A DNA stretch of 64,000 nucleotides, taken from contig NZ_LGQZ01000141.1 of the NCBI RefSeq assembly GCF_003116015.1, forward strand, positions 1-64,000, in the 5' to 3' direction. The notes beneath the pieces are model-generated. The model saw nothing but the letters and a program-made list of their open reading frames with translations, searched no databases and was not told the origin of the DNA. Each line of letters opens with the position of its first letter. Within the stretch, counting starts at the first letter, position 1. This stretch comes from Azospirillum sp. TSO22-1. GTDB lineage: Bacteria > Pseudomonadota > Alphaproteobacteria > Azospirillales > Azospirillaceae. The position numbers and the translations under genes are program-made. Shown one piece after another: positions 41,949 through 54,657 of the stretch.

Positions 41949-43130
41949 ATGGCGGACGAGGATACGGTGATCATCACCGACAGTGACGACACCGTCACCG
42001 AGACGACGCGGCAGGGGTGGCTCGGCCGCCTCGGCGGTTCGGTCGCCGGGGCGTTCATCGGGTTCCTCATGCTGGTCGGCAGCATCGTGCTGCTGTCCTG
42101 GAACGAGGGCCGCGCGGTGGACGCCATCACGGCCCTGAACGCCGGCGCCAAGGCGGTGCAGTCGGTGCCGGCCGACGCCGTGCAGCCGGCCAACGAGGGC
42201 AGGCTCGTCCACGTCTCCGGCCCGGCCACCGTGCCCGGGCGGCTGAACGACCCGGTGTTCAACGTCGGCCACCCCTCGGCCCTGCGGCTGGAGCGCACGG
42301 TCGAGATGTACCAGTGGCGCCAGAACGAGGAGAGCAAGAGCGAGAAGTCGGTCGGCGGCTCCGAGACCACGACGACCACCTACCGCTACGTCAAGGAATG
42401 GTCGGAGCGCCCCATCGACTCCAGCGCCTTCAAGCGCCCGGACGGCCACCGCAATCCCTCCATGCCCTACCGCAGCGCCGCCATTGAGGCGCGCGGCGCC
42501 AGGCTCGGCGCCTTCGCCCTCGACCCGTCGCTGGTCAAGCAGGTGAGCGCCTTCGAGCGGCTGGCGCCGGATTCGTCCGCCGTGCTGCCGCAGGGCTTCT
42601 CGTGGGTGGGCGAGCAGCTGTACCGCGGCGCCTCGCCCGACCAGCCGCAGGTCGGCGACGTGCGCGTCGGCTTCCGGGTGGTGCCGGTGCAGACGCTCAG
42701 CGTCGTCGGCGCGCAGATGAACGGCACGCTGACCGGTTTCCCCGGCGAGCGTGGCCAGACGATCAACCTGGTCGAGACCGGTGCCCGCAGCGCCGACACC
42801 ATGTTCCAGCACGCCAAGTCGGACGAGAACACGCTCACCTGGATCCTGCGCGCGGTGGGTTTCTTCGTGATGCTGTTCGGGGTGCTGTTCATGGCCAGCC
42901 CAATCCTGTGGCTGGCGAGCCTGCTGCCCTTCCTGGAATCGCTGGTGGGGGCGGCGGCCTTCGGCATGGCGGTGGTGGTGTCGGTCCCGCTGACGCTGAC
43001 CGTCGTCGCGGTGGCGTGGCTGGCCCACCGGCCGCTGGTCGGCGCGGGGCTGATCGTCGCCGGGATCGTCCTGGCGGTGCTGATCCGCCGCGTGCTGCCG
43101 TCGCGCAAGCGGGTGGCCGCTACGGCGTAG
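41949..43130 (+). CDS. TMEM43 family membrane protein
   Basis: A 393-residue protein with one N-terminal helix (AGAFIGFLMLVGSIVLLSWNEGRAV), a large extracytoplasmic region (GRLVHVSGPA, RTVEMYQWRQNEES, YRYVKEWSERPIDSSAFK) and three C-terminal helices from about residue 285. The SWNEGRAV and RTVEMYQWRQ blocks are those of the TMEM43/LUMA family, whose bacterial function is unknown. The start at 41949 follows GGGGAGG. The gene ends 11 bp inside the convergent LacI regulator gene. Confidence 0.87.
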   Translation: MADEDTVIITDSDDTVTETTRQGWLGRLGGSVAGAFIGFLMLVGSIVLLSWNEGRAVDAITALNAGAKAVQSVPADAVQPANEGRLVHVSGPATVPGRLNDPVFNVGHPSALRLERTVEMYQWRQNEESKSEKSVGGSETTTTTYRYVKEWSERPIDSSAFKRPDGHRNPSMPYRSAAIEARGARLGAFALDPSLVKQVSAFERLAPDSSAVLPQGFSWVGEQLYRGASPDQPQVGDVRVGFRVVPVQTLSVVGAQMNGTLTGFPGERGQTINLVETGARSADTMFQHAKSDENTLTWILRAVGFFVMLFGVLFMASPILWLASLLPFLESLVGAAAFGMAVVVSVPLTLTVVAVAWLAHRPLVGAGLIVAGIVLAVLIRRVLPSRKRVAATA

Positions 43131-44190
43131 GCTGGGGGAGATTCTCCCGGAAGATCACGTCGATGCGCGGGGCGTCGATGCCGTGCATGGCCTCGCGCCC
43201 GGCGCGCAGGTTGGCGAACACCGCGGCGGCGGCCAGCATGGCGCTCCGGGCGTCCTGGTTGAGCACGGCGTCCAGCGTGCCGTCGATCAGCATGGCGCGC
43301 GTCTCCGCCGTCAGGCCGTGGCCGACGAAGACCACGTCGCGCTCCCGCCGCGCCTCCCTCAGCGCGCGGGCGACGCCGCCGGCCCCGCCGCCGATGTTGT
43401 AGATGCCGGCGAGGTCGGGGTGGTGGGCGAGCAGGGTGCGCGTCTGCCGGTAGCTCTCCCCCTCGTCGTCGTGCGCCTCGCGCAGGCCGAGGACCAGCAC
43501 GTCCGGTGCCGCCTCGGCAAGGTAGGCGAGGAACCCCAGCTCGCGTTCCTCGTGCGCGCGGTAGCTGAGGCTGCCGGCGATCATCGCCACCTTGGCGGGA
43601 CGGCGGCCGGCGAAGCGGGCGATCAGGTGGCCGGCGGTGCGGCCGGCGGCGCGGTTGTCCAGCCCGATGCAGGCGGCGCGCCGGCAGTTCTGCACGTCGG
43701 AGATCAGCGTCACCGTCGGCACGTTGCGCTCCGCCAGCTCGTTCACCGCCTCGCGCACGGCGGGATGCTCCAGCGCCATGAAGGCGACGCCGTCGGCCTT
43801 GCGCCAGTGCTGCAGCAGGCTGCGCGCCAGCAGTTCGGGGTTGAAGCTCTTGATGAACTCGACCTGCGCCTTGATGCCGAGCGGCGCCAGCGCCGCCTCC
43901 GACGCGCGGACCAGCTGGCCGAGGCCGGTGAGGTACCGGTTGGTGCCGGCCGGCAGCAGGAACGCCACCCGCGTCGGCTTCGGCGCCATGGCGGCGCGCA
44001 GGTCGGCCTCGGGCAGATAGTCCAGTTCGGCGGCGGCCTTCAGCACCCGCTGCACGGTGGCCGCCCGCACGCCGGGTCGGTGGTTGAGCACCCGATCAAC
44101 CGTCGCGGTGGACACGCCGGACAGCCGCGCGATGTCCGCGATGCGCGGCAGGCCGCGGGCTTCACCGGCCGTTCCGACATCATCCTGCAT
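43120..44190 (-). CDS. LacI-family regulator of the TRAP/RuBisCO-like operon
   Basis: A 356-residue regulator: helix-turn-helix RIADIARLSGVSTATVDRVLNHRPGV with hinge LDYLPEADLRAAM, then a ligand domain of the sugar-binding type (TRVAFLLPAGTNRYLTGL, GVAFMALEHPAVREAVNELA, GIYNIGGGAGGVARALRE, VVFVGHGLTAETRAML, DAVLNQDARSAMLAAAAVF). It is divergent from the TRAP transporter with 122 bp between starts, so it very likely represses that operon in the absence of its ligand. The ATG at 44190 is preferred to the TTG before it. Confidence 0.9.
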   Translation of the reverse strand: MQDDVGTAGEARGLPRIADIARLSGVSTATVDRVLNHRPGVRAATVQRVLKAAAELDYLPEADLRAAMAPKPTRVAFLLPAGTNRYLTGLGQLVRASEAALAPLGIKAQVEFIKSFNPELLARSLLQHWRKADGVAFMALEHPAVREAVNELAERNVPTVTLISDVQNCRRAACIGLDNRAAGRTAGHLIARFAGRRPAKVAMIAGSLSYRAHEERELGFLAYLAEAAPDVLVLGLREAHDDEGESYRQTRTLLAHHPDLAGIYNIGGGAGGVARALREARRERDVVFVGHGLTAETRAMLIDGTLDAVLNQDARSAMLAAAAVFANLRAGREAMHGIDAPRIDVIFRENLPQPTP

Positions 44191-44199
44191 CAATGATCA

Positions 44200-44300
44200 T
44201 CCATCAAATCACATCAAAAATCACGTTTGACCGAGGAGGTTCGCCGACATACCGTCACGCCAACAATCACGCTATGGCATCAAACTACATCAACGATGCC
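44200..44300. promoter_or_regulatory. Divergent control region with CATCAAA repeats
   Basis: CATCAAA or a close variant occurs at 44202, 44212, 44278 and 44288. GGCATC (44276-44281) and GATGCC (44295-44300) form an inverted repeat just before the TRAP ribosome site, and TCAAA/TTTGA face each other near 44214-44230. These are likely operator parts for the LacI-type regulator. No exact classical LacI palindrome is present. Confidence 0.4.
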
Positions 44301-44312
44301 GGGGAGGAAAGC

Positions 44313-45332
44313 ATGAACCAGCTGTCGCGCCGCACCATGCTCAAGGCCTTCGCCGCCGCTCCGGCCGCGGGGGCGCTCATCGGGATGCCGGGCATCGCCC
44401 GCGCCGCCGAGTTCGAGCTGAAGTACGGCAACAACCTGCCGCTCACCCACCCGCTGAACGTCCGCGCGCAGGAGGCGGCCGAGCGCATCGCCCGCGAGAG
44501 CAACGGGCGCGTCTCCGTCCAGATCTTCCCGAACAATCAGCTGGGCGGCGACACCGACATGCTGAGCCAGGTGCGCAGCGGCGGCATCACCTTCTTCACG
44601 CCGTCGGCGCTGGTGATCGCCACGCTGGTGCCGGTGGCGGCGATCAACGCCGTGGGCTTCGCCTTCTCCGACTACGGGCAGGTGTGGGCGGCGATGGACG
44701 GCAAGCTGGGCGCGCACGTGCGCGGCGCCATCGCCAAGGTCGGCCTCCACGCCTTCGAGAAGATGTGGGACAACGGCTTCCGCCAGATGACCAGCAGCGG
44801 CAAGCCCATCGAATCCGCCGCGGACATGAACGGCCTGAAGATCCGCGTGCCGGTCAGCCCGCTGTCCATCGCCATGTTCAAGGCGCTCTCCGCCGCCCCG
44901 GCCAGCCTGCAGTTCAGCGAGGTGTACTCGTCGCTGCAGACGCGCATCGTCGATGCGCAGGAGAATCCGCTGCCGATCATCCAGGTCGCCAAGCTGTACG
45001 AGGTGCAGAAGTACTGCGCGCTGTCCAACCACATCTGGGACGGCTTCTGGTTCATCGCCAACGGCCGCGCCTGGAACGGCCTGCCGCCGGACCTCCAGAA
45101 GATTGTGGCGGGCGCCATCAACGACGCCGGCATGGCGCAGCGCGAGGACATCAAGGCGCTGAACCAGTCGGTGCAGAAGGACCTGGAGAGCAAGGGCTTG
45201 GCCTTCAACAAGCCCAACCCCGACAGCTTCCGCGCCAAGCTGCGCGACTCCGGCTTCTATTCGGAGTGGAAGGGCCGCTTCGGCGACGAGGCCTGGGGCC
45301 TGCTGGAGGGCGCGGTCGGCAAGCTGGCGTAA
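44313..45332 (+). CDS. TRAP transporter substrate-binding protein (DctP family)
   Basis: A 339-residue periplasmic protein with a twin-arginine signal (LSRRTMLKAFAAAPAAGALIG). DctP blocks: FELKYGNNLPLTHPLNVRAQEAAERI, NGRVSVQIFPNNQLGGDTDMLSQVRSG, MNGLKIRVPVSPLSIAMFKAL, VYSSLQTRIVDAQENPLPIIQ. The conserved arginine of the carboxylate clamp lies in GLKIRVPVS, so the ligand is probably a sugar acid or other carboxylate. The ATG at 44313 follows GGGGAGGAAA. It heads the operon with the fused permease and the RuBisCO-like and kinase genes. Confidence 0.92.
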   Translation: MNQLSRRTMLKAFAAAPAAGALIGMPGIARAAEFELKYGNNLPLTHPLNVRAQEAAERIARESNGRVSVQIFPNNQLGGDTDMLSQVRSGGITFFTPSALVIATLVPVAAINAVGFAFSDYGQVWAAMDGKLGAHVRGAIAKVGLHAFEKMWDNGFRQMTSSGKPIESAADMNGLKIRVPVSPLSIAMFKALSAAPASLQFSEVYSSLQTRIVDAQENPLPIIQVAKLYEVQKYCALSNHIWDGFWFIANGRAWNGLPPDLQKIVAGAINDAGMAQREDIKALNQSVQKDLESKGLAFNKPNPDSFRAKLRDSGFYSEWKGRFGDEAWGLLEGAVGKLA

Positions 45333-45339
45333 TGAATTG

Positions 45340-45483
45340 CCCCCCCCCCCGCCTCCGGCGGGGGAGGGTTGGGTGGGGGCTGCAGCGCGCGCGAAGATCA
45401 CCGCCTGCCACCTCCACCGTAGCCCCCACCTTCCCACGCCTGCGGCGCGGGCCCCTTCCTCCCCCGCCGGAGGCGGGGGAGGG
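45340..45483. repeat. Family A inverted-repeat element, copy 4, with a C11 tract
   Basis: Hairpin blocks CCCGCCTCCGGCGGGGGAGGG at the left and CCTCCCCCGCCGGAGGCGGG at the right, with GGTGGGGGCTGCAGC and GTAGCCCCCACC inside. A run of 11 C opens it (45340-45350). It fills the gap between the TRAP binding-protein and permease genes. Confidence 0.75.
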
Positions 45484-45536
45484 TGTCGCAGAAGCGGATT
45501 AGCGCCATGCACCCCCATACCGAGGAGCACGCGACC

Positions 45537-47417
45537 ATGTCCGGCGAAGCGACCGTGTTCCAGACAACGGCCTCCTCCGGTTCGGCCACCCATCTCGCCG
45601 ACCGGCTGGACCGCGGCCTCGCCTTCACCGTCGAGGCGGTGGCGGCGCTGCTGGTGCTGGTGGAGATCGTCATCCTCTTTGCCGGGGTTGTCGCCCGCTA
45701 CGTCTTCCACGCGCCGCTGGTGTGGTCGGACGAACTGGCCTCCATCCTCTTCCTCTGGCTGTCCATGCTGGGCGCGGTGGTGGCGCTGCGGCGGGGTGAG
45801 CACATGCGGATGACCGGGCTGGTCAGCCGCGTCGGCCCGCAGGCCCGCGCCCTGCTGGAGACGCTGGCGATCACCGCGCCCGTCGCCTTCCTGGCGCTGA
45901 TCCTGCACCACGCCGCCGACTACGCCATGGAGGAGCAGTACATCGTCACCCCGGCGCTGGAGGTCTCCAACGCATGGCGCGCCGCGGCGCTGCCGACCGG
46001 CGTGGCGCTGATGCTGGTGGTGGCGCTGGTGCGGCTGATGCGGCTGCGCTCGCCCCGGCTGGTGCTGGCGGCGGTGGCGCTGACCGCCGGCGTGGTCGGC
46101 GCCTTCTGGCTGGCCGGGCCGGTGCTGAAGCCGCTGGGGCAGGCCAACCTGATCATATTCTTCGTCGGCGTGGTGGCGGCCAACGTCTTCGCCGGGGTGC
46201 CCATTGCCTTTTCCTTCGCGCTGGCCACCTTCGGCTATCTGGCGCTGACCACCACGACGCCCTTGCTGGTCATGGTCGGCCGGCTGGACGAGGGCATGTC
46301 GCACCTGATCCTGCTGGCCGTGCCGCTGTTCGTCTTCCTGGGCCTGCTGATCGAGATGACGGGCATGGCGCGCGCCATGATCCAGTTCCTCGCCAGCCTG
46401 CTGGGGCACGTGCGCGGCGGGCTGTCCTACGTGCTGATCGGGGCGATGTACCTAGTCTCCGGCATCTCCGGCTCGAAGATCGCCGACATGGCGGCCATCG
46501 CGCCGGTGCTGTTCCCCGAGATGAAGAAGCGCGGCGCCGCCCCCGGCGACCTCGTGGCACTGCTGTCCGCCACGGGTGCCCAGACCGAGACCATCCCGCC
46601 CTCCATCGTGCTGATCACCATCGGCTCGGTCACCGGCGTGTCGATCGCCGCGCTGTTCGCCGGTGGGCTGCTGCCGGCGGTGGTGCTGGGCGCGGCGCTG
46701 TGTGCCGTCGTTTGGTGGCGCTACCGGCACGAGGACCTCAGCCACGTCGCCCGCACGCCGAAGAAGGAGATCGCGCGCCTCGCCCTGGTGGCGCTGCCGG
46801 CCATTGCGCTCCCCTTCGTCATCCGCGCCGCGGTGGTCGAAGGTGTGGCGACCGCCACCGAGGTGTCGACCATCGGCATCGCCTACGCGACGCTGATGGG
46901 CCTGCTGGTCTACCGGCAATTCGACTGGGCGCGGCTGCGGCCCATGCTGATCGAGACCGCGTCGCTCACGGGCGCTATCATCTTCATCGTCGGCTGCGCC
47001 ACCGCCATGGCCTGGGGGCTGACGCAATCCGGCTTCTCGCGGGATCTGGCGCGCTGGATGGCCGGCATCCCCGGCGGGGGATACGGCTTCCTCGCCATCT
47101 CCATCGTCGCCTTCGTCATCCTCGGCAGCGTGCTGGAGGGCATCCCCGCCATCGTGCTGTTCGGGCCGCTGCTGTTCCCCATCGCGCGGGCCGCCGGCGT
47201 GCACGAGGTGCACTACGCCATGGTGGTGATCTTCGCCATGGGCATCGGCCTGTTCGCCCCGCCGTTCGGCGTCGGCTACTACGGCGCCTGCGCCATCAGC
47301 AAGGTCCACCCGGACGAGGGCCTCAAGCACATCTGGGGTTACGTCGCCGCCCTGCTCGTGGGCTTGGTCGTGGTCGCCGCCATCCCCTGGATTTCCACCG
47401 GCTTTCTGCCCTTCTGA
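45537..47417 (+). CDS. TRAP transporter permease, fused small and large subunits (DctQM)
   Basis: A 626-residue membrane protein. The DctQ part has four helices and the block VVARYVFHAPLVWSDELASILFLWLSMLGA, with an RRGEHMRM loop. After two linking helices the DctM part follows (VPIAFSFALATFGYLAL, GLLIEMTGMARAMIQFL, SGISGSKIADMAAIAPVLFPEM, TGAQTETIPPSIVLI, GLFAPPFGVGYYGACAI). Natural Q-M fusions are common. It imports the ligand of the upstream binding protein with an ion gradient. The ATG at 45537 follows GAGGAG; in-frame starts at 45507 and GTG 45483 are less well placed. Confidence 0.9.
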   Translation: MSGEATVFQTTASSGSATHLADRLDRGLAFTVEAVAALLVLVEIVILFAGVVARYVFHAPLVWSDELASILFLWLSMLGAVVALRRGEHMRMTGLVSRVGPQARALLETLAITAPVAFLALILHHAADYAMEEQYIVTPALEVSNAWRAAALPTGVALMLVVALVRLMRLRSPRLVLAAVALTAGVVGAFWLAGPVLKPLGQANLIIFFVGVVAANVFAGVPIAFSFALATFGYLALTTTTPLLVMVGRLDEGMSHLILLAVPLFVFLGLLIEMTGMARAMIQFLASLLGHVRGGLSYVLIGAMYLVSGISGSKIADMAAIAPVLFPEMKKRGAAPGDLVALLSATGAQTETIPPSIVLITIGSVTGVSIAALFAGGLLPAVVLGAALCAVVWWRYRHEDLSHVARTPKKEIARLALVALPAIALPFVIRAAVVEGVATATEVSTIGIAYATLMGLLVYRQFDWARLRPMLIETASLTGAIIFIVGCATAMAWGLTQSGFSRDLARWMAGIPGGGYGFLAISIVAFVILGSVLEGIPAIVLFGPLLFPIARAAGVHEVHYAMVVIFAMGIGLFAPPFGVGYYGACAISKVHPDEGLKHIWGYVAALLVGLVVVAAIPWISTGFLPF

Positions 47418-47449
47418 GGCCGCCGGTCCCTCTTTCAAGGAGTGTTCGC

Positions 47450-47989
47450 ATGAGCCGATTCTTCGGCGAGATCCGGCAGGCCGGCTATGTCGTGGACGAC
47501 ATCGAGGCCGCCATGGACTACTGGAGCCGCACGCTCGGCATCGGCCCGTGGTTCTACAACGAGCGCGTGCCCATCAGGAACTACACCTACCGGGGCGAGC
47601 GGTACGAGGTGCACAACTCGGTGGCGCTCGCCAACTCCGGCCCGTTGCAGATGGAGCTGATCCAGACCCGCAACGATGCGCCCTCCATGTACCGCGACTT
47701 CCGGCAGGCCGGGCGCACCGGCCTCCAGCACGTCGCCTACTGGACGCAGGACTACGACGCCGACATGGAGCGGCTGCTCAAACAGGGGTTCAAACCCGTC
47801 ATGAGCGGCGAGGTGGGAGAGCGCGGGCGCTTCGTCTATTTCGACACCGAGTACCACCCCGGCACCGTCATCGAGCTGTCGGAGGTCGCCGGCCCCAAGG
47901 GCAAGATGTTCGACCTGATCCGCGCCGCCTCCGAAGGCTGGGACGGCAGCGACCCGGTGCGCCCGTTCCCCGACCTCAGCCGGCTGTAA
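47450..47989 (+). CDS. VOC (glyoxalase-fold) metalloenzyme
   Basis: A 179-residue protein with two beta-alpha-beta3 modules. The four positions that bind metal in glyoxalase I are all present: Gln10 (RQAGYVV), Glu69 (QMELIQ), His94 (LQHVAYW) and Glu142 (TVIELSE). It should therefore be a metal-dependent isomerase, lyase, epimerase or dioxygenase of the VOC superfamily. In this operon, between a carboxylate TRAP transporter and a RuBisCO-like protein, an epimerase or isomerase step on a sugar acid is plausible but unproven. The ATG at 47450 follows AAGGAG. Confidence 0.88.
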   Translation: MSRFFGEIRQAGYVVDDIEAAMDYWSRTLGIGPWFYNERVPIRNYTYRGERYEVHNSVALANSGPLQMELIQTRNDAPSMYRDFRQAGRTGLQHVAYWTQDYDADMERLLKQGFKPVMSGEVGERGRFVYFDTEYHPGTVIELSEVAGPKGKMFDLIRAASEGWDGSDPVRPFPDLSRL

Positions 47990-48008
47990 GCCGCTTATGG
48001 AGCATATT

Positions 48009-49274
48009 ATGGGGCGCCTGGAAGCCGACTACCTGATCGAGACGCCGCTCGACCCGGCCAAGGTGGCCGAGGTGATGGCCGGCGAGCAGTCCTGCGGCAC
48101 CTTCACCCGCGTGCACGGCGAGACCGACGACCTGCGCGCCCGCGCCCGCGCCGTGGTGGAGCGGATCGAGGAACTGCCCACCGCGCTCACCCCCAGCCTG
48201 CCGAACAGCTGGCTGGAGCGGCAGAGGCGGCCGGGGCCGTGGCGGCGGGCGAAGATCACCATCTCCTTCCCGGTCGCCAACCTCGGGCCCAACCTGCCGA
48301 CGCTGGCGGCGACGGTGGCCGGCAACCTGTACGACCTGGGCGAGGTCACCGGGCTGCGCCTGGAATCGGTGCGCGTCCCCGCTGTCTACCGGGCGCAGTT
48401 CGAGGCGCCGCGGCACGGCGTCGCCGGCACCCGGCGGCTGACCGGCGTCTCCGAGGGCGCGCTGGTCGGCTCGATCATCAAGCCCAACGTCGGCCTGTCG
48501 GCCGAGGAGACGGGGGAGCTGGTCGGCCAGCTCTGCGCCGCCGGTTTGGACTTCATCAAGGACGACGAAATCTGCGCCGACCCGGCGCACGCGCCGCTGG
48601 CCGAGCGGGTGCCGGCGGTGATGCGGCGGGTGCGGGCGCACCAGGACCGCACCGGCAAGCACGTGATGGTCGCGTTCAACATCACCGACGAGACCGACGC
48701 CATGCGCCGCCACGCCGAGCTGGTGGAGCGCGAGGACGGCAGCTGCGTGATGGTCAGCCTGAACTGGTGCGGCTTCTCGGCGGTGCAAACGCTGCGGCAA
48801 AGCACCGGGCTGGTGCTGCACGGCCACCGCAACGGCTTCGGCGCTCTCTCCCGGCACCCGATGCTGGGCATCGGCTTCGATGCCTATCAGGTCCTCTGGC
48901 GGCTGGCCGGCGTCGACCACATGCACGTGCACGGCCTGCAGGGCAAGTTCGCCCAGCCGGATTCGGAGGTGATCGAGGGCGCGCGCGCCTGCCTGACGCC
49001 GCTGGCCGACGGGGCGGACGACCGGGTGATGCCGGCCTTTTCCTCCGGGCAATGGGCGGGCACCGTGCCGGTGACCTGGGACGCCGCGGGCACCGACGAC
49101 CTGCTGTTCATGTCGGGCGGCGGCATCATGGCGCATCCGGACGGCCCGGCGGCCGGCGTCGCCTCGATCCGGCAGGCGTGGGCAGCGGTGCGCGCGGGCA
49201 CCAGCCTGGAGGATGCGGCCAAAGCGCAGCCGGAACTACAACGCGCGCTGGCGTTCTTTGGGGGGAAGGCGTGA
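48009..49274 (+). CDS. RuBisCO-like protein (form IV), OiaX-like
   Basis: A 421-residue RuBisCO large-subunit homologue. The N-domain begins ADYLIETPLDPAKVAEVMAGEQSCGTF. The barrel carries Lys158 in IIKPNVG (RuBisCO Lys175 position) and the carbamate/metal site Lys184, Asp186, Glu187 in FIKDDE, plus a histidine-rich strand LHGHRNGFG. The loop-6 region reads HVHGLQGKF, unlike true carboxylases. RuBisCO-like proteins next to a DUF1537 kinase include OiaX, which decarboxylates 3-oxo-isoapionate 4-phosphate in D-apiose breakdown. Here the rest of that pathway is missing, so the exact substrate is open. The ATG at 48009 has GGAG upstream; ATG 47997 is an alternative. It overlaps the kinase gene. 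Confidence 0.88.
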   Translation: MGRLEADYLIETPLDPAKVAEVMAGEQSCGTFTRVHGETDDLRARARAVVERIEELPTALTPSLPNSWLERQRRPGPWRRAKITISFPVANLGPNLPTLAATVAGNLYDLGEVTGLRLESVRVPAVYRAQFEAPRHGVAGTRRLTGVSEGALVGSIIKPNVGLSAEETGELVGQLCAAGLDFIKDDEICADPAHAPLAERVPAVMRRVRAHQDRTGKHVMVAFNITDETDAMRRHAELVEREDGSCVMVSLNWCGFSAVQTLRQSTGLVLHGHRNGFGALSRHPMLGIGFDAYQVLWRLAGVDHMHVHGLQGKFAQPDSEVIEGARACLTPLADGADDRVMPAFSSGQWAGTVPVTWDAAGTDDLLFMSGGGIMAHPDGPAAGVASIRQAWAAVRAGTSLEDAAKAQPELQRALAFFGGKA

Positions 49275-50551
49275 CGCTCCGGTACGGCTGGTACGGCGAC
49301 GATTTCACCGGCGCCACCGACACGCTGGCGACCCTGGCGAAGGCCGGGCAGCGGGCGCTGCTGCTGCTCGGCGTGCCCGACGCCGGGCGGCTGGCGAACC
49401 TCGGCCCGCTCGACGCGCTGGGCATCGCCGGGGCGGCGCGCGGCATGGATCCGGAGGCCATGCGGGCCGAGTTGGAGCCGGTCGGGCGCTTCTTCGCGGG
49501 CCTGCGCGTGCCGGTGATGCACTACAAGTGCTGTTCGACCTTCGACAGCGCGCCGCACGTCGGCAGCATCGGCGCCGCGGTGGCGGCGCTGCGGCCGTTC
49601 TTCCCGAACCCGTTCCTGCCCATCGTCGGCGGCCAGCCGAATATTGGCCGCTACTGCCTGTTCAGCACCCTCTTCGCCGCCGCCGGTATCGGCGGGACCG
49701 TACATCGCATCGACCGCCACCCGACCATGCGCGCCCACCCGGTCACCCCGATGACCGAGGCCGACCTGCGCCTGCATCTCGCCGCACAAGGGCTGTCCGA
49801 CGTCGCGGCGCTGCACTACCCCGACTACGACCTGGGCGACGCGGCGCTCGACGCGCGGGTGGGCGAAGGGGGCGTGCTGCTCGACGTCGCCCGCCCGGCG
49901 CACCTCGCCCTCATCGGCCGGCTGATCTGGGAGCGCGCCCGCCGGGCGCCGCTGCTGGCGGTGGGGCCGAGCAGCGTGGCGCAGGCGCTGACCGCGCACT
50001 GGTCGCTCGCCGGCCCGGCGGCGTCCCGTCCCATGGATTACGCCCTGGAGCCGGCGCGCGGCCCGGTGTTCGTCATGGCCGGCAGCCTGTCGCCGGTGAC
50101 GCGCCGGCAGGTCGAGGCCGCCGCGTCCTTCGACCGCCTGCACGCCGCCGCCGGCCTGTTGTGCGCCGACCCCGCCTACGCGGCGCGCCTGCGGGAGGAC
50201 GTCGCCACCCGCCTGCGGACCGGACGGCACGTCCTGGTGTGGACCGCGCCGCCGGACGACGCGCCCGACACCGCTCAGGCCGCCGCGGTCGCCGCCGCCA
50301 CCGCGGCCTTCGTCGCCGACGTGGTGCGCGCGGTGCCGGTGCGGCGGTTGGGCATCCTCGGCGGCGACACCTCCAGCCGGGCCGTCGCCGCGCTCGGCTG
50401 CTGGGGGCTATCCTATGCGACCATCCTGGGGCCAGGGGTGACGCTGTGCCGGAGCCACGGCGACGACCCCGCCTGCGACGGCATCGAGCTGATGCTCAAG
50501 GGCGGCCAGATGGGGAGCGAAGATCTTCTGGAACGGCTGGTTCACGGGTGA
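49271..50551 (+). CDS. Four-carbon acid sugar kinase family protein (DUF1537), OiaK-like
   Basis: A 426-residue kinase starting with GTG in a GTGA overlap with the RuBisCO-like gene. Family motifs: YGDDFTGATDTLATL at the N-terminus (substrate side), HYKCCSTFDSAP, FVMAGSLSPVTRRQVEAA, and the nucleotide-binding GGDTSSRAVAALG near the C-terminus, with GVTLCRSHGDDPACDGIELMLKGGQMGSEDLLERL closing the domain as in relatives. Such kinases phosphorylate sugar acids before decarboxylation; OiaK acts on 3-oxo-isoapionate. Together with the decarboxylase-like partner this defines a kinase-decarboxylase pair. Confidence 0.9.
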   Translation: MTLRYGWYGDDFTGATDTLATLAKAGQRALLLLGVPDAGRLANLGPLDALGIAGAARGMDPEAMRAELEPVGRFFAGLRVPVMHYKCCSTFDSAPHVGSIGAAVAALRPFFPNPFLPIVGGQPNIGRYCLFSTLFAAAGIGGTVHRIDRHPTMRAHPVTPMTEADLRLHLAAQGLSDVAALHYPDYDLGDAALDARVGEGGVLLDVARPAHLALIGRLIWERARRAPLLAVGPSSVAQALTAHWSLAGPAASRPMDYALEPARGPVFVMAGSLSPVTRRQVEAAASFDRLHAAAGLLCADPAYAARLREDVATRLRTGRHVLVWTAPPDDAPDTAQAAAVAAATAAFVADVVRAVPVRRLGILGGDTSSRAVAALGCWGLSYATILGPGVTLCRSHGDDPACDGIELMLKGGQMGSEDLLERLVHG

Positions 50552-50690: not shown

Positions 50691-51341
50691 ATGCAGACGC
50701 TCATCGATGGTTTCCGGACGTTCCGCGCCACGGCGTTCCAGAATCACAAGGAGCGTTACCGCCACCTCTCCGTCGCCGGGCAGAACCCGCGCGCGGCGGT
50801 GATCGCCTGCTGCGATTCTCGCGTCGATCCGCAGCTGATCTTCGGGGCTGGGCCAGGAGACCTGTTCGTCATCCGCAACGTCGCCAACCTGGTGCCGCCC
50901 TACGCGCCAAGCGCCGACTACCACGGCACCAGCGCGGCGCTGGAGTTCGCGATCCGGCAACTGAGCGTGCCGCAGGTCATCGTCATGGGCCACACCCGCT
51001 GCGGCGGCATCCGCACGCTGCTCGACCGCGGCGCCGATGGCGGCGACTTCATCGGCCCGTGGATGTCCATCGCCGCCGACGTGCGCGCGCGGGTCCTCGA
51101 CGGCGCCGCACATCCGGAACAGGCCTGCGCCGCGGCCGAGCGCGAGGTGATCCGCCAATCCCTCGCCAACCTCATGAGCTTCCCGTGGATCCGCGAGAAG
51201 GTCGAGACCGGCACGCTTGCGCTGCACGGCTGCCTGTTCGACGTGGCGGCGGCCGATCTGCTGCTGCACGACCCGGCCAGCGGCGCTTTCCGCTCCATGG
51301 CCGCGGAGACCGAGCGCCGGCCGCCGGCCGCCTGCGGCTGA
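50691..51341 (+). CDS. Beta-class carbonic anhydrase
   Basis: A 216-residue zinc enzyme interconverting CO2 and bicarbonate. Zinc ligands and the Asp-Arg dyad are in VIACCDSRVDPQLIF and the second half-site in VMGHTRCGGIRTLL. Length and the C-terminal LHGCLFDVAAADL block fit the bacterial beta class. No signal peptide. It lies 139 bp after the kinase gene behind its own palindrome-rich promoter. It could help dispose of CO2 from the neighbouring decarboxylase-like reaction; that link is only positional. Confidence 0.93.
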   Translation: MQTLIDGFRTFRATAFQNHKERYRHLSVAGQNPRAAVIACCDSRVDPQLIFGAGPGDLFVIRNVANLVPPYAPSADYHGTSAALEFAIRQLSVPQVIVMGHTRCGGIRTLLDRGADGGDFIGPWMSIAADVRARVLDGAAHPEQACAAAEREVIRQSLANLMSFPWIREKVETGTLALHGCLFDVAAADLLLHDPASGAFRSMAAETERRPPAACG

Positions 51342-51345
51342 GCGG

Positions 51346-52702
<1,357 letters not shown>

Positions 52703-52710
<8 letters not shown>

Positions 52711-54493
52711 GGGCGGCCTCCGGCAGGATCATCACGAAGGTCGCGCCGGCGTCCGGATTGTTCTCGGCGCGCAGGCTGCCGCCGAAGTCGCGCACGATGC
52801 CGTAGGACAGCGACAACCCGAGGCCCAGGCCCTCGCCGACCTCCTTGGTGGTGAAGAACGGGTCGAACAGGCGGGCCTGATGCTCCGCCGCGATGCCGGT
52901 TCCGATGTCGGAGATCCGCACCTCCCACACCCCGGGACCACGCACGGCCGATACGGTGATGCGGCGGTCCTCCACACCGGACAGGGCGTCGGCGGCGTTG
53001 CGGATCAGGTTGACCAGCACCTGCTCCAGCCGGACCGCGTCGCCGCGCACCAGGGCGTCGTCGGGCACGGCGCGGGTCAGGTCGATGCCATCCTGGCGCA
53101 GCCGCTGGCCGAGCAGCAGCAGCGCGCGATCGAGGGCCTGCCCCACCGGCACCGCCTCCACCCGCGCCGGCCCCTTGCGGGCGAAGGTCTTGAGGTGGCC
53201 GGAGATCACCGCCATGCGCTCCGCCATGTCGGCGATCATGCCCAGGTTGCCGAGCACCGAGGGGGTGTCGCCGCGCTCCGCCAGCAGGCGGGTGGACGCG
53301 ACGAAGGTGCGGATCGCCGCGAGCGGCTGGTTGAACTCATGCGCCAGCGCCGCCGACATCTGTCCGAGCGCCGCCAGCTTGCCGGCCTGCACCAGTTCCT
53401 CCTGCGCGTCGCGGAGCACCTGGTTGGCGGCGGCCAGCTCGTGGGTGCGCTCCTCGACGCGGCGCTCCAGAGTCTCGTGCGCCTCGCGTTGCAGGCGCAA
53501 CGTCTCGGCGCGCTGGCGGGCGAGCAGCAGGCCGGCGGCGAGCAGCAGCACGAGCGCCGCCGCCAGCACCGCGCCGCTGCGCGCCTGGGCCAGCACGGGT
53601 TCGACGTCGGCGAGCAGGCGGATGGTGGCGTCGAAGTCGGGCAGGGCCAGTTCTTGCATCAGGAAGGCGCGGCCCCGCTCATCCGACAGCGTCACCATGC
53701 CGTCCGGCCCGTCACCGAGGCCGAGCGGACGGAGGTCGGCGCCGGCATACTGCCGGGTGGCGGCGAGTTGGGCGCGCACCGGTTCGGCCAGCGGACGCAG
53801 GGGACGGTACTTCCACTCGGCGTGGCTGGCGAGGAAGACGACGCCGTTCCCGTCAGTGACCATCACCCGTTCCCCGGCCGCCTGCCAGTCGCGCTGCAGC
53901 GGCTCCAGGTCGACCTTGACGACGGCGGTGCCGGCCACCCCCTCCGCTCCGAGCGCCGCACGCGACAGGAAGTAGCCGGGCAGGCCGGTGGTGGCGCCGA
54001 TGCCGAAGTAGCGGCCGCTGCCGGTCGCCATCGTCTGCCGGAAATAGGGGCGGAAGTCGTAGCGGTTGCCGACGAGGCTCTGCACCGGGTCACGCCAGTT
54101 GCTGGCGGCCAGCGTCAGCCCGGTGCGGTCGGTGACGTACAACGATGCCGCTCCGGCGGCCTCGTTTGCGTCCTCCAGCAGGCGGTTGGTGGTGTGCCGA
54201 CGGTCGGCGGAAGGATCCTCCAGCAACGCCAGCACGTCCTTGTCGTGCGCCAGCAGGAAAGGCAGGTAGTCGTATCGGCCGACGGCGGTGCGGATGCCGC
54301 TGGCGTACAGGCCCAGGCGCTGGTCGCCGACCCGGCGCAGTTCGGCCAGCCCGCTCGCCTCCACCCAGCGGTGCGTCTGCCAAGGGGCGAGCGTCAGCGC
54401 TGCGACGAACGCCACGGTCCACAGAGCCCGGCGACCGCCGGGGCGCGGGCGGGGCAGGGCGTCCGTCTGCTGGTCGGTGCGGGCAATGGACAT
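52703..54493 (-). CDS. DctB-type sensor histidine kinase
   Basis: A 596-residue kinase: TM1 (LWTVAFVAALTLAPWQTHRW), a double-Cache periplasmic sensor of the DctB type (RYDYLPFLLAHDKDVLALL, ASNWRDPVQSLVGNRYDFRPYF, FLSRAAL), TM2 (VLAAALVLLLAAGLLLA), a coiled coil, HisKA (ALAHEFNQPLAAIRTFV) and HATPase (NLIRNAADAL, DIGTGI, GLGLGLSLSYGI). Relatives sense C4-dicarboxylates. Here the partner operon is a NitT/TauT-type ABC importer, so the ligand may be a different carboxylate or a keto acid. The start at 54493 is set by the basic N-region before TM1. Confidence 0.92.
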
Positions 54494-54590
54494 GGCCTGT
54501 GCCGGGGATTGAGGCGGAAGCGCAGAGTGCTGGGACGGATCGCCCGTGGTCAAGGGGCGCCGGCAAGGCACCGTTCCTCCGGCGGAGGAA

Positions 54591-54657
54591 CGGATTTTCC
54601 GCGGTCGGCGGATTTCCGCCGATTTCACGCGGCGCCTCGGCGGATTTCCGCCGATTT
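54591..54657 (+). promoter_or_regulatory. Tandem palindromic enhancer sites for the DctD-type regulator
   Basis: The palindrome CGGCGGATTTCCGCCG occurs twice (54606-54621 and 54638-54653) within 21-bp direct repeats 32 bp apart, about three helical turns. A weaker partial copy (CGGATTTTCCGCGG) lies at 54591-54604. They are about 45-90 bp upstream of the sigma-54 promoter, typical enhancer positions. Confidence 0.75.

Follow-up and report, generated by a model that had tools for sequence, protein, structure and literature searches.

Which compound is taken up and broken down by a gene cluster that sets a RuBisCO-like protein (RLP) between a glyoxalase-fold enzyme and a sugar-acid kinase? Such a cluster lies at 43120-50551 of a 64,000-nucleotide stretch of Azospirillum sp. 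TSO22-1 (contig NZ_LGQZ01000141.1, positions 1 to 64,000; hereafter the window). It is a compact unit of a LacI regulator, a tripartite ATP-independent periplasmic (TRAP) importer, an enzyme of the vicinal oxygen chelate (VOC) fold, the RLP and a DUF1537 kinase. A sequence-only reading of the window had taken these genes as one unit, related to the OiaX/OiaK pair of D-apiose catabolism (3-oxo-isoapionate-4-phosphate decarboxylase and 3-oxo-isoapionate kinase) and acting on a different sugar acid. We found that the gene set recurs in constant order across many alpha- and betaproteobacterial genera, which is beyond chance, and that its RLP belongs to a clade separate from OiaX. Judging from the sequences, we give about even chances to an operon reading: self-contained and under LacI control, the unit would serve to import and degrade a single oxo sugar acid that is oxygenated and probably branched.

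Gene content and conservation of the unit

The source genome comprises 7.35 Mb in 250 contigs. Its closest named relatives are Azospirillum; the RLP is 92% identical in A. rugosum and A. canadense, and the tree described below agrees. Every gene of the unit has an intact open reading frame, and the Pfam domains of all its proteins exceed their gathering scores. The regulator gene lacI (43120-44190, minus strand; Pfam LacI and Peripla_BP_4) is divergent from the operon, and its listed open reading frame begins at a TTG one codon earlier. On the plus strand lie dctP, encoding the TRAP solute-binding protein (44313-45332; Pfam DctP), dctQM, encoding a fused TRAP permease (45537-47417; Pfam DctQ and DctM), and the genes for the VOC enzyme, a proposed isomerase (47450-47989; Pfam Glyoxalase_4, 91 bits against 27), the RLP (47997-49274, alternative start 48009; Pfam RuBisCO_large, N-terminal and catalytic) and the acid-sugar kinase (49271-50551; Pfam SBD_N and NBD_C). 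The last two genes share four bases, GTGA, which is the overlap that the sequence-only reading had described.

The neighbourhood of related RLPs was surveyed in three sets of records, all reached via the RLP and not via the VOC gene. An RLP of 69-91% identity was present in 31 of 44 other genomes of the same genus, and the VOC gene adjoined it in all 30 of these that were fetched. Among plasmid records (the best 60 of 347 for the RLP and the best 60 of 75 for the VOC enzyme) the VOC gene was adjacent to 18 of 18 RLPs of at least 58% identity; the next RLP on the list had 53%, and the 42 remaining RLP records listed did not overlap with the VOC records listed. The third set came from 297 genomes of the family of Tianweitania populi (G665), presumably the Rhizobiaceae. 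Here the VOC gene stood beside every RLP whose best match was the window RLP (8/8) and beside none of the 8 fetched RLPs closer to the other branch. At least four plasmid records share coordinates with same-genus genomes, and at least 52 of the 56 cases are taken as distinct. The VOC gene, a third step in the sequence-only reading, is thus not missing from homologous operons.

Scanning GTDB genomes with an alignment of the VOC enzyme gave 430 relatives. The best 80 of these, all of at least 83% identity, are referred to below as the VOC loci; their flanks were read to at most 10 kb, and less at contig ends. A clade RLP and a kinase were found in 72 of the 80, in the fixed order lacI, importer, VOC, RLP, kinase, and no further enzyme was common to these 72. 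Four loci, all from Bradyrhizobium (L097, L104, L126, L127), hold an RLP and kinase of the other branch in the same slot, three (L091, L119, L121) have an RLP on a short contig that ends before any kinase, and one (L130, Microvirga aerilata) has neither. The order that recurs here, together with the intact frames and the Pfam domains, bears out the sequence-only reading of a single unit.

LacI was present at all 80 loci and DctP, at 60% identity or more, at 77. The permease matched at 60% or more in 59 loci, at 40-60% in 16 and below 40% in 2, and had no match in 3; in Microvirga it sits on the other side of lacI. Other TRAP systems (∼30% identity) serve the enzyme trio in L042, L050-L054, L109, L129 and L221-L222. 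As LacI is constant and other TRAP systems occur with the same trio, the transporter is the exchangeable part, and the regulator, VOC enzyme, RLP and kinase are the fixed part. Median identities over the 80 loci were 85.5% for the VOC enzyme, 76.8% for the RLP and 56.3% for the kinase. We do not use the high conservation of the VOC enzyme as evidence, since the loci were picked by VOC similarity, which biases the comparison.

Two organisms carry the importer and the VOC gene without an adjacent RLP. In A. thermophilum (L055) the unit stops after the VOC gene, and no RLP was found on the plasmid record, the one record searched; just upstream of the importer and VOC genes lie genes annotated as a different DUF1537 kinase, PdxA and a class II aldolase. 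In M. aerilata an RLP-kinase pair of the other branch is found elsewhere, beside apiose-type genes. A short-chain dehydrogenase/reductase gene of a Neorhizobium operon has a homologue within 10 kb in 5 of the 80 VOC loci, in L125 between lacI and dctP; in those strains its product may feed a hydroxy acid into the pathway by oxidising it.

Relation of the RLP and kinase to OiaX, OiaK and RuBisCO

The best NCBIfam hits of the RLP and the kinase are OiaX and OiaK, both under the cut-off. Against cut-offs of 700 bits, the RLP reaches 414 on NF042437 (OiaX) and the kinase 284 on NF042436 (OiaK). The kinase scores 143 bits on the 3-oxo-tetronate kinase (OtnK) model NF043035 (cut-off 350) and is also under the cut-off of the NCBIfam D-threonate kinase. 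Neither is the RLP a RuBisCO proper of forms I-III, as it reaches 229 bits on the form III model (cut-off 497) and 223 on PRK04208 (cut-off 438). OiaX over its cut-off was found in 59 of the 297 genomes of the T. populi family, at 731-800 bits, with the other listed matches at 454 or below. A search for the OiaX family in 289 genomes of the class gave a match in only 2, none over the cut-off. RLPs at 45-49% identity were also seen on haloarchaeal plasmids, for example of Halomarina, Halalkalicoccus, Natronosalvus and Haloterrigena (H35, H37, H41, H42, H49, H50, H54).

A tree was built from 95 RLPs and a form I RuBisCO. Once incomplete rows, rows not 380-470 residues long and repeat copies of the window had been set aside, 191 rows remained (190 and the structure PDB 3nwr); collapsing near-copies at 90% identity reduced them to 95. 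In this quick-type tree, with SH-aLRT support only and long branches flagged for RuBisCO, L182 and L049, 47 of the 49 VOC-linked RLPs formed one group together with 3nwr, and 23 OiaX formed another (SH-aLRT 100 each). The two VOC-linked RLPs outside the clade are Bradyrhizobium copies. The rubisco-like protein 3nwr, which we take to come from a Burkholderia, is the closest solved structure to the window RLP (E 7.6e-208); no function was found for it in its record or in print. As both proteins miss the family cut-offs and the tree places the RLP apart from OiaX, we rejected an assignment of the pair as OiaX/OiaK, which, with full activity on isoapionate intermediates, would have refuted the sequence-only reading.

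The genome also encodes a form I RuBisCO, with which we compared the window RLP at 22 active-site positions. The two agree at 15 positions (E60, T65, N123, K175, K201, D203, E204, H294, R295, H327, K334, S379, G381, G403 and G404, in RuBisCO numbering), and these hold in 46 or 47 of the 47 clade rows. The changes are W66F, K177N, H298F, L335F, E336Q, G380S and Q401M, of which that at 336 is unsure, the alignment column being beside a gap. W66F, K177N and H298F, like the family scores, set the RLP apart from RuBisCO proper. The carbamate-type KDDE site that had been recognised in the window (K188, D190, E191; K201, D203 and E204 in RuBisCO numbering) is invariant in 47/47 clade rows, and K175 is too, which places the RLP with the carbamate-activated RuBisCO type. 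All 23 OiaX carry D at 60, G at 123, Q at 327 and G or C at 379, where the window RLP has E, N, H and S. The other non-VOC RLP rows have E60, N123, H327 and S379 in 22/22, and also S177 and W298 in 22/22.

Because the window RLP keeps these four RuBisCO residues that are changed in OiaX, a plain OiaX-type decarboxylase is not our best guess. Judged from the residues, we prefer a hydrolytic or gas-adding (oxygenase-type) cleavage, which appears at least as likely as plain decarboxylation. The succession of kinase and then decarboxylase, as the sequence-only reading had put it, is thus unsupported. That reading otherwise survived the checks: the pair fell outside OiaX/OiaK, the VOC gene was present in homologous operons, and the absence of apiose genes is supported.

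For this last point we used a Shinella plasmid cluster (L183), where an ApnL-like lactonase (313 bits, cut-off 750) lies beside an RLP and kinase, as do an oxidoreductase of the Gfo/Idh/MocA family and a protein whose C-terminal domain is of the phosphogluconate-dehydrogenase type. Given the ApnL match and the known pathway, we infer that the three are apiose enzymes, the lactonase, dehydrogenase and oxidoisomerase. As probes, the three matched near many non-VOC RLPs and some OiaX; they had no match within the 64-kb window and none near the VOC loci (0/80). The ApnO-like (oxidoisomerase) probe among them had no match in the window genome either, but a single match in every one of five control genomes (5/5). 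A search of the window genome with the ApnL model gave no match, but neither did the control genomes. A sugar acid different from that of the apiose pathway, as had been proposed from the missing apiose genes and the VOC protein, is plausible. Four RLPs of the other branch (L181, L224, L226, L227) have apiose-type or oxidoisomerase-like neighbours, but over the stretch read nothing matched a DUF1537 kinase; they perhaps belong to another branched-sugar route with a different kinase.

The unit might instead be a side entrance to the known apiose pathway, importing 3-oxo-isoapionate or its ketol isomer, with the kinase and RLP carrying out the known steps. We regard this as unlikely, if a serious contender. 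The family hits to OiaX and OiaK, even under the cut-offs, would fit it, as would the four Bradyrhizobium operons, where the native pair is replaced by pairs of the branch that includes apiose-type clusters, and M. aerilata, where the importer and VOC gene stand apart from such a pair. It is at odds with the position of the RLP outside the OiaX clade, with the four residues and with the absence of apiose-type genes around the VOC loci. Two genomes (G929 and G872) moreover each combine a VOC-linked RLP with an OiaX that passes the cut-off, and five (G757, G800, G815, G892, G934) hold a VOC-linked RLP and a second RLP, known by its score of 421-431 bits only. The presence of both types within single genomes suggests separate roles.

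The VOC enzyme and the proposed pathway

The four glyoxalase metal ligands that the sequence-only reading had pointed out in the VOC enzyme (Q10, E69, H94, E142) are invariant in 18/18 aligned sequences. In the confident structural model (mean pLDDT 86.3, from 14 sequences) each ligand lies on a predicted strand. We take the Q/E/H/E pattern to be that of human glyoxalase I, and methylmalonyl-CoA epimerase to differ at two of the four ligands. The enzyme scores 25 bits on the methylmalonyl-CoA epimerase model TIGR03081 (cut-off 115), and we rejected this assignment. Enzymes of the glyoxalase/epimerase type transfer a proton through an enediolate or enolate, and therefore an isomerase role suits the VOC enzyme. 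C2 of 3-oxo-isoapionate bears no hydrogen, so that an epimerase acting at this carbon was rejected. Of the two roles that had been suggested, isomerase or epimerase, the first is thus the better guess, and the second is unlikely at that carbon.

The VOC enzyme travels with uptake and probably acts before the kinase, because it stays with the importer where the RLP and kinase are exchanged (Bradyrhizobium) or not adjacent (A. thermophilum, M. aerilata). This constancy also bears on a different arrangement, in which the VOC enzyme is not the first step: the RLP would be an oxygenase, or the VOC enzyme a dioxygenase or a clean-up enzyme after the RLP. RuBisCO residues E60, N123 and K334 are kept in the RLP, VOC folds include dioxygenases, and an oxygenase RLP of the D-hamamelose pathway was reportedly described by Kim and colleagues in 2018. 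VOC dioxygenases have a three-ligand pattern, whereas the enzyme here has four invariant ligand positions, the number of glyoxalases and epimerases. Together with its staying beside the importer, this makes the arrangement improbable.

For the operon reading we infer the substrate, the order of steps and all activities as follows. The TRAP system would import the oxo sugar acid. The VOC enzyme, with its glyoxalase-I-type metal site, would isomerise it to a 2-hydroxy-3-oxo acid, by a 2-oxo/3-oxo interconversion or by a ketol-acid shift like that of the isomerase half of the apiose oxidoisomerase. The kinase would phosphorylate the terminal hydroxyl, and the RLP, activated by carbamylated K188 and Mg, would cleave the 3-oxo phosphate in a RuBisCO-like manner. 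A hydrolytic route to 3-phosphoglycerate and a small acid appears likelier than OiaX-type decarboxylation. In four Bradyrhizobium operons an RLP and kinase of the other branch fill the slot of the native pair, which argues for the same or a very similar phosphorylated intermediate. More tentatively, the VOC-linked clade may represent a new function in the RuBisCO superfamily. As catabolic enzymes, its members would carry out the latter half of the RuBisCO reaction, splitting a branched 2-carboxy-3-keto phosphate hydrolytically to give 3-phosphoglycerate. Their intermediate would come from a new VOC ketol-acid isomerase, and the pathway would serve an acid of plant or soil origin whose breakdown is still undescribed. 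We think this possible, on balance doubtful.

Four non-VOC RLPs with LysR-RLP-kinase-TRAP clusters (L032, L033, L182, L184, of which L032 and L184 are near-identical) have a pyruvate kinase gene nearby, which fits 3-phosphoglycerate as their product but is indirect evidence. For the nature of the acid, the importer offers a lead. DctP is ∼62% identical to its closest solved relative, the TRAP DctP subunit PDB 4oan (E 1.9e-132), which was reportedly modelled with 2-acetolactate. If so, a useful clue is the branched 2-hydroxy-3-oxo skeleton that acetolactate and 3-oxo-isoapionate have in common. In G304, where the 4oan gene has a 100% match, its neighbours are dctQM and a gene judged by eye to be CoA-ligase-like, and no VOC or RLP gene was present in the 19.5 kb read. 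As 4oan is thus a paralogue with neither enzyme in that stretch, we rejected its ligand as the substrate of the operon. A TRAP review counts 2-acetolactate among newly found ligands and names no entry in the portion available to us (PMC5812351). No paper naming 4oan was found in the accessible literature.

Several observations weigh against the pathway as drawn. The nearest folds of the VOC enzyme are 3gm5, a putative epimerase, and true methylmalonyl-CoA epimerases, which would also fit an epimerase. In its RLP pocket the clade has N at 177, against S in the other branch and A/S in OiaX, and F/Y at 298, against W in both, and the meaning of these changes is clouded by Bradyrhizobium, which employs a W298-type RLP in the same operon. 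The pyruvate kinase gene that would match a 3-phosphoglycerate product is near none of the VOC loci (0/80), and the acetolactate lead stems from a paralogous operon.

The steps could also be read as a linear four-carbon route paralleling OtnI-OtnK-OtnC, where the VOC enzyme would turn 2-oxo-tetronate into 3-oxo-tetronate and, after the kinase, the RLP would decarboxylate the product to dihydroxyacetone phosphate. The step order is that of the L-threonate route, as far as the available text of the source describes it (PMC12540250). The kinase matches the 3-oxo-tetronate kinase model at its 143 bits, but it is far under the cut-off of 350 and closer to OiaK. Known RLP substrates are branched or like ribulose-1,5-bisphosphate, and N123, H327 and S379 are kept in the window RLP beyond what a simple decarboxylase of the OiaX kind retains. 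In the accessible part of one source, too, RLP substrates are described as related to ribulose-1,5-bisphosphate (PMC10176493). We consider a tetronate route quite unlikely.

Intergenic elements, flanking genes and known systems

The region between lacI and dctP (44191-44312) contains ATCA-rich repeats. Of 89 distinct orthologous lacI-dctP intergenic regions, 68 contain a 16-base ATCA-rich element with no more than 2 mismatches, and none of the 20 shuffles made of each region does. As the element was derived from the same regions in which it was counted, and as the window copy has 4 mismatches, we regard it as a candidate operator and no more.

Between dctP and dctQM lies a GC-rich inverted repeat of ∼145 bases (45342-45483), with 44-nt arms that are 80% complementary. 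A second copy is present in the window at 2574-2709, and 63 matching pieces were found genome-wide. It looks like a dispersed element of the repetitive extragenic palindromic (REP) or miniature inverted-repeat transposable element (MITE) type, and no functional part of the unit. In three Azospirillum relatives (L030, L031, L062) the RLP match is broken near residue 336-342, in L062 by another GC-rich palindromic repeat, and similar repeats lie between the VOC and RLP genes in L059 and L067. The operon seems to gather such elements.

Just downstream of the operon is a beta-carbonic-anhydrase-like gene (50691-51341, named by eye). It has no match in any other organism's locus fetched and therefore lies outside the conserved unit; we rejected it as an operon member. 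A DctD/DctB-like two-component pair follows the operon on the minus strand (within 50691-54628, named by eye).

Pairs of an RLP and a DUF1537 kinase are known. The VOC-linked clade appears undescribed within the literature searched, where we found no description of a VOC-linked RLP; most subscription papers lay outside that search. Only a handful of RLPs are described as characterised so far (PMC10176493). RLPs are examples of re-used RuBisCO chemistry, and this clade is widespread and has a solved structure (3nwr), its own importer and regulator and two partner enzymes, so that the search for its substrate is short and well defined.

Among known systems, the D-hamamelose pathway, compared by its description only, resembles the unit in using an RLP, there an oxygenase, in the breakdown of a branched sugar. 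The L-threonate route, in the portion of the source available, consists of a dehydrogenase, the isomerase OtnI, the kinase 3-OtnK and the decarboxylase 3-OtnC (PMC12540250). It shares with our proposal the order of isomerase, DUF1537-type kinase and cleavage of a 3-oxo-4-phosphate, whereas its isomerase and decarboxylase belong to other families and the window kinase is under the 3-oxo-tetronate kinase cut-off. In its chemistry, the 3-oxo-isoapionate-4-phosphate transcarboxylase/hydrolase RLP of Xanthobacter autotrophicus, presumably OiaT, resembles what we judge likeliest here. Like the window RLP as we picture it, this enzyme acts on a 3-oxo acid phosphate; the likeness is one of reported activity alone, taken from the accessible part of a source in which RLPs of two organisms carry out decarboxylation and transcarboxylation/hydrolysis of 3-oxo-isoapionate-4-phosphate (PMC6302742).

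With OiaX/OiaK the unit has in common the adjacent RLP and DUF1537 kinase and the KDDE site. It differs in that OiaX is linked to apiose-type genes at some loci and the VOC clade at none of 80, in the constant VOC and LacI genes, in the separate clade of its RLP, and in E, N, H and S at positions 60, 123, 327 and 379, where OiaX has D, G, Q and G or C. This four-position contrast gives a direct handle on the RuBisCO residues that are needed for hydrolysis but dispensable for decarboxylation.

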